64,000 nucleotides of DNA, taken from Chloroherpetonaceae bacterium (GTDB taxonomy: Bacteria; Bacteroidota; Chlorobiia; Chlorobiales; Thermochlorobacteraceae). Both the position numbers and the translations under genes were made by a program. The notes below the pieces were generated by a model. It had not been told where the DNA came from and ran no database searches. It was given only the letters and a program-made list of their open reading frames with translations. Position 1 is the first letter of the stretch. The number at the start of each line of letters is the position of its first letter. Positions 11,349-14,914 of this stretch are shown here, one piece after another. The DNA lies in assembly GCA_033763895.1 (NCBI GenBank), contig JANRJQ010000007.1, positions 386,178-450,177 of the forward strand. Direction: 5' to 3'.

Positions 11349-11401
11349 TGTATTTGTGAGTTTATGTGAATTTGAACCTAATAATATTGACGCGCGAATT
11401 T

Positions 11402-12121
11402 ATGAAATCAACCCAATTTGAGAAAACCTTTGATAGGAATTCTTTCTTTGTTTCGCACCGATTCGTATTTTTCTTTTTAGCACCTTATTTCATCATTATG
11501 GTGAATGATTGCTTTAACAGAACTTTCGCTCCTGAATCAAAAATTATGGTAACTCTCTCGCAATCCCTTTCTGATACTGGTTTTGTGGATTTACAAAGTG
11601 TTATTTCCGAAGCAATTTTTGATATTCGTTACGCCTCGGAGAATAACTTTATGAAAAAAAAGGTTTACCCTGAGGCTCGGTGTGTTTTAAGAAAAAAAGT
11701 TGCTGAAAGACTCAAACGGGTAAGCGATAAACTTATTCTTAAAGGGTATCGATTAAAAATCTTTGATGCTTACCGTCCACTTTCTGTGCAATGGAAATTG
11801 TGGGAAGTTGTACCTGACCCACGCTTTGTTGCCGATCCTCGAAAAGGTTCAAAACATAATCGTGGTGCCGCGGTTGACCTTACCCTAACAGATTTAGACG
11901 GGAATGAATTACAAATGCCAACCGCGTATGATGAGTTTATCGATGCCGCACGAAGTGACTATCGAAATCTTCCCGAAAAGGTTCTTGCCAATCGCACGAT
12001 TTTGCATGATGCAATGAAAAGTGAAGGATTTATTCCAAACCCCTCTGAATGGTGGCATTTTGATTCGCCCGATTGGAAGACTTATTCAATCTCAGATGTT
12101 CCGTTTTCTAAAATAAAGTAA
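11402..12121 (+). CDS. D-alanyl-D-alanine dipeptidase (VanX/DdpX family, M15D)
   Basis: About 239 residues. The zinc-site motifs are SKHNRGAAVDLTL (SxHxxGxAxD) and EWWHFD (ExxWH), and the arginine loop is FDAYRPLSVQWKLWE, all typical of M15D peptidases. The family splits D-Ala-D-Ala, in most bacteria for peptidoglycan dipeptide recycling. The N terminus carries a hydrophobic stretch (FVFFFLAPYFIIM), perhaps a signal or anchor, so the enzyme may act in the periplasm. An ATG at 11366 is possible. It lies 29 bp before the DUF4032 gene on the same strand. There is no VanA/VanH neighbour, so a resistance role is not suggested. Confidence 0.88.
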   Translation: MKSTQFEKTFDRNSFFVSHRFVFFFLAPYFIIMVNDCFNRTFAPESKIMVTLSQSLSDTGFVDLQSVISEAIFDIRYASENNFMKKKVYPEARCVLRKKVAERLKRVSDKLILKGYRLKIFDAYRPLSVQWKLWEVVPDPRFVADPRKGSKHNRGAAVDLTLTDLDGNELQMPTAYDEFIDAARSDYRNLPEKVLANRTILHDAMKSEGFIPNPSEWWHFDSPDWKTYSISDVPFSKIK

Positions 12122-12150: not shown

Positions 12151-13395
12151 GTGAAATTAACCTACGATTTACCCGATCACTATTTATCTGAACTCTCTGA
12201 CTTCCCTTTTGAATCAAATCTCGAAGATTGGGAAGCTTTTGGGGTTCAAACACTTTCGATTCGAAAAGGGAATTCACGGCATCCGGTTATTTTTGTTAAG
12301 GCTCCTCATTCCGAAAAAACTCAAGCCTATGCGATTAAGGAAACAACGCCGGCATTAGCTTACAAGGAGTGGAAAAATTACATCAAACTCAAAGAACTTG
12401 AAATTGAAACCCTCACTCCAGTTGGCGTTGTGGTTCGTGAGGATGAAGAGATTGCGGTTGAGACACCGGTCGGGGTGATGTATGAAAAGAACGAAGTCGC
12501 TTATTTGATCACGCTTTTGGAAGAAACGGTATTGCCGGAGTCATATCTTTTCAGTTACCGTTTGGCAAGAGGCGCCAGAATTGAAATCTTTAATGCTATT
12601 TCTGAACTTTTTGCAAATTGTCACGCCAAAGGAGTTCATTGGGGAGATGCCTCACTCGAAAATGTTTTGGTCAAATTTAAGCGTGAAGAATACACCTTAG
12701 GAAAAAAGCGGCGACTCACAGCCATTTTAAGTGATACTGAAACCACCGAAATCCATCCTTCCCTCTCGCTTCGATCTCGAGAAAGTGACATTGAATTTTT
12801 TTTCGAATCAATGCTTTGGCTTGATGAAGAGTTTACCAAACGAGGGATTCCAAGAGACCGAAGCATAACTTCCGAGGACATTGAATACTTGAAAAACCGT
12901 TACAATTTTCTCTATTCAATTTTTGAAGCACATAAAGCATTTGATAAACTCACGTCATTTCGCTCGGAGCGGCATTTTGGAAAATTTCGAAGCCTTTCCC
13001 ACCCTAAAGTATTGCTCAAACATCTTGAGGAACATAAATGGTATCTCTCGGAACGCGCCAAAAAGGAAGTCACCTTGCGAGAGGCGACGATTGATTGGTA
13101 TGTCAAATTGTTTTTGCCGCTCAGAGAAACTCTTTCACAAAGTCGCTTTGCAACTTTTTTCCCGGATAAAACAGAACTTGAACTTTACATTGAGATTATG
13201 GAAAACAAGTATTATCTGAGTGAAAAAAAGGGCAAGGATATAGGCTTAAGCGCCGCAATGCAAGATTATTGCAACCGCTTTGGCGTCGAAAAGGACTTTA
13301 TTTCGGTCATGAAGCGAATGTTTAAAGATTTGATTTCAATCACAAAAGATTATTCAAGTTTACCTATGACATCGCTTCAAGATAAAGGTGCCTGA
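12151..13395 (+). CDS. DUF4032-type kinase-like protein
   Basis: 414 residues, GTG start. The N-terminal half looks like a protein-kinase/lipopolysaccharide-kinase fold: AYAIKETTPALAYKEWKNYIKL (Lys and Glu of the N lobe), SELFANCHAKGVHWGDASLENVLVKF (catalytic-loop type H-x-D-xxxxN), and AILSDTETTEIHPSL (a DxE/T metal loop). The C-terminal half is helical and unrecognised. This arrangement matches DUF4032 proteins as I remember them; the assignment is from motif reading, not a search. The substrate is unknown. It sits between the dipeptidase and a membrane-anchored GrpE-like protein on one strand, with short gaps, so the three may be one transcript. Confidence 0.65.
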   Translation: MKLTYDLPDHYLSELSDFPFESNLEDWEAFGVQTLSIRKGNSRHPVIFVKAPHSEKTQAYAIKETTPALAYKEWKNYIKLKELEIETLTPVGVVVREDEEIAVETPVGVMYEKNEVAYLITLLEETVLPESYLFSYRLARGARIEIFNAISELFANCHAKGVHWGDASLENVLVKFKREEYTLGKKRRLTAILSDTETTEIHPSLSLRSRESDIEFFFESMLWLDEEFTKRGIPRDRSITSEDIEYLKNRYNFLYSIFEAHKAFDKLTSFRSERHFGKFRSLSHPKVLLKHLEEHKWYLSERAKKEVTLREATIDWYVKLFLPLRETLSQSRFATFFPDKTELELYIEIMENKYYLSEKKGKDIGLSAAMQDYCNRFGVEKDFISVMKRMFKDLISITKDYSSLPMTSLQDKGA

Positions 13396-13459
13396 AATTT
13401 TTGTATCTTTAAAGCTATTATTTTGCAATCCGGCAAATCGCTACAATCTTCAAAACAAA

Positions 13460-14914
13460 ATGAAATTCGCTTTTTCACTTTTTCTTCTTTTTTTCTTTTT
13501 TCTTCAAGTTGACGCGCAAACGCCAATTACAAAGCCCGAAGCAAAAACGATTTGTTTTTACTTGAAACCAATCTCGGAGGATTCGCTTTTAATACGAATC
13601 GTTCAAAGTGGAATGGTTGAAAATGAAAAGATGTCGCGTAATTTGTTGATTACAATGCCTTCACGCTCTGAATTGTATATCGATTATTACAATCTACCTC
13701 CCCGAGACAAACCCAAAAATGATGCCATCCGCCTTGAAGATGTTTATCAACATATTGGGGCACACTTTTCAACCTTTTCTAAAGATAAACTGAATACGAT
13801 TGTAGGATATAGAAACTTGATTGAAGTAATCCGAAGCCAAAGCACAACTTTATTTAAGTCTATCAAACTCACATCATTCGGAATTCCTGACCTAGTTTAT
13901 GTTTTTAATTTTGAACTTGCCCTTGAAAACGACGCGCTTCTGCGTGACCCGAACACGCCCGAATCCGTGGCTCTTTATAATTTCATGACAAAGCAATGGA
14001 TTGCAGAAACTGCTCAACCTGACTATACAAGGAAGTTACGATCAGCAAAATTTGAAGGTTTTATTCAGCAATCATTCATTTCAGGGTTAACAAAAGTTTC
14101 GGACAATGCAAAGCTTTCTTCAAGCGATCAAAAGTTAATTGAAACGGCTAATCTTAGGGCTCTTTATGCACTTGGAGGAGTTGGGCTCTTGCTTATTTTC
14201 TGTCTGTTTTTGCTCTTTAACGCGGGAATCAACATTCGAAAACTGAAAAAAACATTGGAACGTGTTGAGGGGAAACTTCGCGTAATGGACAATAAACTTG
14301 AAAAGCCATTTTATCAATCCACAGAAGTTGAATCTAAGCGAGACTTCAAGATTAACAAATCGATTGATGATTTATTAATTCGAATCAGAAAATTAGAATT
14401 GGGTTCAAATTATCAGCCTTTTGACAGTCAATCGATTAATTTCATTAATCCACTTGCTGCTAAAATTGCTGAATTAAACACTCGCTATAAATTAGAGTGG
14501 TCAAAGCCGAGTGCTTTCGAAAGTGCTGATATTTCAATGAAGCTTGCGTTTTATCTTGATGAATTCACTTCTCTTTTAAGCGAATTAGAAGCGGGTGTTT
14601 CTCCCAAAAGTTTTGTTCCTCAAGTTGTCTTTCAGCACATTGATCGAATTGATGCCCTTTTTCAGACAGACATTGATTCTACATTGAACACCCCAGAACA
14701 GGTTCTTCGGTATATCAAAGAGTTATGCGAAATTTTGGCTATTCGGCAAATTGAAATTATTCCGAGAAATACCGCTTTCAATAATGAAATTCATGAGAAA
14801 GCGGGGGCGATGTTAAAAACTGCTTTTGCTCCGAATACGATTATTAAAGTGTTACAACGCGGGTTAGTTCATGAAAACTATATTCGTAAATCGAAAGTCG
14901 TTAAGGCAGAATAA
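13460..14914 (+). CDS. Membrane-anchored protein with GrpE-like C-terminal domain
   Basis: 484 residues. The Sec signal is MKFAFSLFLLFFFFLQVDAQ; an extracytoplasmic domain of about 210 residues follows, with no recognised family; one membrane helix lies at about 234-256 (YALGGVGLLLIFCLFLLFNAG); then comes a basic coiled coil (NIRKLKKTLERVEGKLRVMDNKLEK) and a cytoplasmic domain. The last 50 residues (ILAIRQIEIIPRNTAFNNEIHEKAG ... VLQRGLVHENYIRKSKVVKAE) follow the GrpE beta-domain plan of [I/V]EV.P..G..F[D/N]..xHEA... V.QRGY...+..+R.A.V. That likeness is my reading and would make it a membrane-tethered DnaK exchange-factor-like protein. No DnaK gene is near. The start at 13460 gives the signal peptide; an upstream ATG at 13388 overlaps the previous gene. 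Confidence 0.6.
   Translation: MKFAFSLFLLFFFFLQVDAQTPITKPEAKTICFYLKPISEDSLLIRIVQSGMVENEKMSRNLLITMPSRSELYIDYYNLPPRDKPKNDAIRLEDVYQHIGAHFSTFSKDKLNTIVGYRNLIEVIRSQSTTLFKSIKLTSFGIPDLVYVFNFELALENDALLRDPNTPESVALYNFMTKQWIAETAQPDYTRKLRSAKFEGFIQQSFISGLTKVSDNAKLSSSDQKLIETANLRALYALGGVGLLLIFCLFLLFNAGINIRKLKKTLERVEGKLRVMDNKLEKPFYQSTEVESKRDFKINKSIDDLLIRIRKLELGSNYQPFDSQSINFINPLAAKIAELNTRYKLEWSKPSAFESADISMKLAFYLDEFTSLLSELEAGVSPKSFVPQVVFQHIDRIDALFQTDIDSTLNTPEQVLRYIKELCEILAIRQIEIIPRNTAFNNEIHEKAGAMLKTAFAPNTIIKVLQRGLVHENYIRKSKVVKAE

Follow-up and report, generated by a model that had tools for sequence, protein, structure and literature searches.

GrpE is a soluble nucleotide exchange factor of DnaK. The GrpE-type factor of the mitochondrial import motor, Mge1/GrpEL1, is likewise soluble and acts beside the membrane, while membrane-anchored J proteins such as DjlA recruit DnaK locally to the inner membrane. 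Could the exchange factor itself be built into a bacterial membrane, and be coupled there to a kinase? This question is raised by two adjacent genes in a 64,000-nucleotide stretch of DNA (hereafter the window) from a genome of 3.55 Mb, whose relatives are Thermochlorobacteraceae (order Chlorobiales). A preliminary description of the window, made from the sequence alone, proposed that one of them encodes a DUF4032 kinase-like protein and the other a GrpE-like protein tethered to the membrane (mGrpE below).

The locus and its setting

Both genes were confirmed as open frames at the coordinates given in Table 1, with an in-frame GTG at 13388 as an alternative start of mGrpE upstream of the ATG. 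The D-Ala-D-Ala dipeptidase gene that had been noted as a third neighbour is indeed present (co-directional, ~30 bases 5′ of the DUF4032 gene), but its link to the pair is not conserved: it occurs near the pair in no relative examined, and we rejected it as a member of the system. Downstream of mGrpE lies a convergent CAAX-protease-like gene. Elsewhere in the window, the minus strand carries a SAM riboswitch at 1265-1387 (Rfam RF00162, 74.2 bits).

Table 1. Features of the DUF4032-mGrpE locus (window coordinates; topology and domain assignments are predictions)
Feature	Position	Strand	Basis
D-Ala-D-Ala dipeptidase	11366-12121	+	Peptidase_M15, E 1.6e-35
DUF4032 kinase-like protein, 414 aa, GTG start	12151-13395	+	Pfam PF13224
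Kinase-like core: Lys63, Glu73, H158-x5-W-G-D166-x-S-L-x-N171, D195-x-E-T	12283-12840	+	Invariant in 20 homologues
Membrane-anchored GrpE-like protein (mGrpE), 484 aa from ATG 13460	13460-14914	+	
mGrpE signal peptide	13460-13516	+	Hydrophobic N-terminal segment, all members
mGrpE predicted periplasmic domain, ~190 residues, alpha/beta	13541-14104	+	AlphaFold2 model
mGrpE transmembrane helix, basic residues C-terminal to it	14162-14218	+	Hydropathy and charge, 11/11 members
mGrpE cytosolic coiled coil, ending in invariant PFYQ	14222-14320	+	One long helix in AlphaFold2 model
mGrpE GrpE short-helix bundle (PHIDxIDALFQ ... TPxxVxxYxxxL)	14600-14743	+	Aligned with LLPVIDxLDRA and the next GrpE helix
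mGrpE GrpE beta-wing domain	14744-14911	+	Pfam GrpE match; 67% mean family identity

A GrpE domain at the C terminus of a predicted membrane protein

The claimed GrpE-like C terminus was borne out by profile searches. The C-terminal ~72 residues of the window protein match Pfam GrpE (PF01025) above the cut-off (E 2.3e-6, 27.8 bits vs 25.8), the whole-genome GrpE search placing the match at 14687-14902, and three relatives match the same profile independently (E 2.1e-7, 2.7e-6 and 3.5e-6; 27.3-31.2 bits), so that four independent members exceed the curated threshold; three members from genus g4 score below it. The preliminary description had confined the GrpE pattern to the last 50 residues, and the beta domain is found there, but the similarity is larger: the matches of the relatives cover profile positions 65-162, i.e. 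the beta wing together with the preceding short-helix bundle. A profile-profile comparison with the canonical GrpE of Chlorobiales gave a probability of 92.5 and E 4.8e-7 over 96 columns, and the GrpE motifs LLPVIDxLDRA / IPHIDxIDALFQ, FDxxxHE, PGT(I/V), RG(F/L) and VRxAxV are kept in the mGrpE alignment. When a profile built from the C-terminal 104 residues was run against 464 proteins (canonical GrpE plus more than 400 other proteins from the examined loci), it retrieved exclusively its own family and GrpE proteins. Taken together with the topology signals common to the family (see below), these matches and the specificity control put the observation far beyond chance.

The family is diverged. 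Both the Pfam and the local hhalign matches end short of the GrpE stalk, the place of which is taken by a coiled coil and linker. The NCBIfam GrpE equivalog cut-off of 231 bits is missed by a wide distance (best score 19.6 bits, and 21.0 for the member from genome G004), and the ordinary GrpE of the window genome is also under its NCBIfam cut-off, though by a smaller margin (121 vs 137). When PDB sequences were searched with the mGrpE profile, GrpE appeared at E 1.2 only. Judged by sequence, mGrpE is a diverged GrpE-domain paralogue, and orthology to the cell's GrpE is not claimed.

A signal-type N terminus and a single strongly hydrophobic internal helix followed by basic residues are present in 11 of 11 family members, matching the signal peptide, periplasmic domain and single membrane helix that had been read from the window protein. 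This arrangement predicts that the N-terminal domain is periplasmic while the coiled coil and the GrpE domain are cytosolic; cleavage of the signal peptide is expected after VDA (a site read by eye). The periplasmic domain, for which no recognized family was found, is the best-modelled part of mGrpE (AlphaFold2, block pLDDT mostly 74-92), and the wing was modelled at low confidence. A structure search with this model returned helical-bundle look-alikes and non-significant matches, and did not convincingly retrieve GrpE; the match to T. thermophilus GrpE (VIA) covers the membrane/coiled-coil helix only and is uninformative on the wing. The mean pairwise identity within the family is 23% for the signal, 40% for the periplasmic domain, 49% for the coiled coil, 30-34% for the linkers, 34% for the helices preceding the bundle, 54% for the bundle and 67% for the wing. 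The GrpE part is therefore the most constrained region of the protein, as expected if its working surface sits there.

The DUF4032 kinase-like protein

The assignment of the upstream gene product as a DUF4032 kinase-like protein held, with a match to Pfam PF13224 at E 6.4e-13 (49.3 bits, cut-off 23.8) and with the catalytic residues Lys63, Glu73, Asp166 and Asn171, as well as the metal-binding Asp195, invariant across 20 DUF4032 homologues. Its similarity to Kdo/WaaP kinases (PF06293) is below the cut-off (E 0.064, 13.1 bits vs 21.3), other DUF4032 proteins match these kinases at E 2.6e-4 and 1.3e-4, and one homologue (L085) reaches 22.0 bits against the same cut-off. These weak matches suggest that DUF4032 belongs to the same superfamily. 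As in DUF4032 proteins at large, distant relatives of the Kdo/WaaP-type kinases, the full kinase signature is accompanied by C-terminal repeats. In the structure model, residues 125-217 are precisely the part with low confidence, and a PDB sequence search yielded chance matches only and no solved relative.

Distribution and gene neighbourhood

All nine searched genomes of the window's family (the window genome included) contain mGrpE. The gene is also found in genome G010 of the sister family, where it is split by a contig break, and the homologue in G009 (L023:8863-9855) ends after the coiled coil, without a GrpE domain. mGrpE was not found in the Chlorobiaceae searched, and the rest of the 394-genome Bacteroidota sample yielded only one marginal coiled-coil match. 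Within this Bacteroidota survey, the fusion of a membrane protein to GrpE is confined to Chlorobiales outside Chlorobiaceae. A scan of genome contigs with the window protein alone retrieved no relative, and since relatives do exist, this empty result reflects the low sensitivity of a single-protein scan.

The conserved neighbourhood that the preliminary description had set as a test was observed: among the window genome and 60 others of its order (61 in all), this DUF4032 gene is present in seven, each time immediately 5′ of mGrpE on the same strand. These genomes represent four genera (g1, g2, g4 and g6) and two families; their DUF4032 and mGrpE proteins are 56-61% and about 30-34% identical to those of the window, respectively, and the other neighbours differ from those in the window. 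In genus g4 the two frames overlap by about 20 bases. On the other hand, genomes of genus g3 have mGrpE and no DUF4032 gene. Taken with the GrpE-less homologue of G009, this means that neither part depends strictly on the other.

In relatives, a DUF429 gene directly precedes the pair, accompanied in some genomes by a gene for a protein of 108-116 aa matching no known family (both genes together: L017:11416-12384, L022:508-1476, L024:1168-2167). The DUF429 gene of the window genome sits elsewhere, away from the pair. The GrpE-less membrane protein of G009 likewise has a DUF429 gene next to it (L023:9969-10595).

Whereas the DUF4032 gene of Chlorobiales is paired with mGrpE, those of other Bacteroidota are not near GrpE. 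In three genomes of family f29 (L087, L090, L093) the gene is located directly behind those for undecaprenyl-pyrophosphate phosphatase (BacA/UppP) and a VTT/DedA-type protein, and a link to the lipid carrier is possible in this case. In L089, L091 and L094 (families f10 and f33) it is flanked by the genes for an M64 peptidase and a SpoIIE-type phosphatase, possibly forming a kinase-phosphatase pair with the latter.

Candidate Hsp70 partners and DnaK-contact residues

The ordinary GrpE of the window genome is encoded by a separate gene (G000:C4:721458-721940) adjoining DnaJ, and the genome also encodes an ordinary DnaK and a second, HscA-like Hsp70 (708 bits vs a cut-off of 620; L143:6860-8752). 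With a canonical DnaK and its own canonical GrpE in place, a candidate cytosolic partner for mGrpE exists.

In DnaK-GrpE structures, the wing of one protomer and the short helices open the nucleotide-binding domain of DnaK, while the stalk and tail work on the substrate side (PMC10803776, PMC12987570). The former elements are kept in mGrpE, and where the latter would be it has the coiled coil and membrane anchor. At the level of individual contacts, Arg169 of M. tuberculosis GrpE forms a salt bridge with DnaK Glu236, and basic residues of the stalk helix touch DnaK in other species (PMC10803776). The position of Arg169 was confirmed in the 8gb3 sequence; its equivalent is Arg in 9 of 10 mGrpE members and Gln in the window protein, the same as in E. 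coli. As this position is not Arg in canonical GrpE proteins of Chlorobiales either, the residue is weak evidence for a contact between mGrpE and DnaK. The position of M. tuberculosis His181 is occupied by Lys in mGrpE, the hairpin after RG is shorter by one residue, and the wing is preceded by a two-residue insertion.

A possible exchange factor at the membrane

From the homology, topology signals, conservation and linkage described above, we infer that mGrpE may be an inner-membrane GrpE paralogue that recruits and recharges DnaK at the membrane and is functionally coupled to the DUF4032 kinase, a reading to which we give an even chance. A diverged GrpE paralogue would have been fused to a membrane protein of the sensor or anchor type, with the N-terminal domain in the periplasm, one helix crossing the inner membrane and the bundle and wing carried by the cytosolic coiled coil. 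Dimerization of the protein would most likely run through the coiled coil together with the bundle, and the wing would engage the nucleotide-binding domain of cytosolic DnaK, so that ADP and substrate would be released at the membrane while the ordinary soluble GrpE would serve the bulk cytosol. For the DUF4032 protein, kinase activity within the same pathway is most likely, with mGrpE, DnaK or a substrate in the envelope as possible targets. A more elaborate version, in which the periplasmic domain would read the state of the envelope, DUF4032 would modify the module and the GrpE domain would switch DnaK exchange at the membrane on or off, appears unlikely; if true, Hsp70 cycling would respond directly to signals from the envelope.

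An alternative is that the GrpE domain was recruited simply as a dimerization or protein-binding module without any Hsp70 action, mGrpE being a lineage-specific envelope sensor or scaffold. The unrecognizable canonical stalk, the several wing changes, an invariant signature of the family's own around HEK and the dispensability of the GrpE domain in G009 would all fit, but the wing and bundle are the part under the strongest constraint and the C-terminal profile still retrieves GrpE only, so that we regard this alternative as somewhat improbable. We are similarly doubtful that mGrpE and the DUF4032 kinase are just co-transcribed and share no pathway. The g3 genomes with mGrpE alone and the quite different neighbours of DUF4032 in other Bacteroidota (UppP and DedA-type or SpoIIE-type genes) speak for it; their adjacency in 7 of 7 cases across four genera and two families, despite rearranged flanking genes, argues against it.

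The choice of Hsp70 is a further matter. A second, diverged Hsp70 is present in the genomes with mGrpE (fragmentary in G008), as in the f1-f3 relatives of the window genome, and the Chlorobiaceae representative G011 lacks it; this speaks for mGrpE serving this protein instead of DnaK. However, G012 and G009 have a second Hsp70 although neither has a GrpE domain at the membrane, the gene of this Hsp70 is not linked to mGrpE, and E. coli HscA is not known to need GrpE. Being HscA-like and occurring without mGrpE, the second Hsp70 is weakened as a dedicated partner; it is possible but less likely than DnaK, and we consider this option quite improbable.

Compared with GrpE proteins of PF01025, the proposed exchange factor at the membrane has the C-terminal bundle and wing in common with them, but a signal peptide, periplasmic domain, membrane helix and coiled coil replace the disordered tail and stalk, and it is an extra copy alongside the ordinary GrpE. 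Like Mge1/GrpEL1 it would act next to a membrane, the difference being that mGrpE itself is predicted to span it. The proposed local recruitment of DnaK resembles that by DjlA, but the co-chaperone class differs (the exchange rather than the ATP hydrolysis step). None of the GrpE domain, DUF4032 and the chaperone logic is new in itself. In the open-licence papers searched, neither a membrane-bound GrpE nor a pairing of mGrpE with DUF4032 is described, and DUF4032 is nowhere mentioned. A membrane-spanning GrpE would mean that bacteria can place the exchange step of the Hsp70 cycle at the envelope and perhaps gate it there, and the envelope is where the chaperone system may be operated from in these relatives of green sulfur bacteria. 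The linkage also gives a functional context to the kinase-like family DUF4032.

Other GrpE-like proteins in Bacteroidota

An ordinary GrpE is encoded in nearly all of 392 Bacteroidota genomes, most of them having a single GrpE gene. Extra GrpE matches in 12 genomes were considered as membrane forms and rejected, being mostly short paralogues, a double-match frame or below-cut-off partials in long frames. A single 377-residue frame beside dnaJ contains two successive GrpE matches (L162 / L170; G400:C1:402117-402968). In two Chlorobiaceae genomes (G046 and G025; L171 and L172), small diverged GrpE-like proteins are encoded beside diverged Hsp70-like proteins, and these neighbours are candidates for other accessory Hsp70-GrpE pairs.
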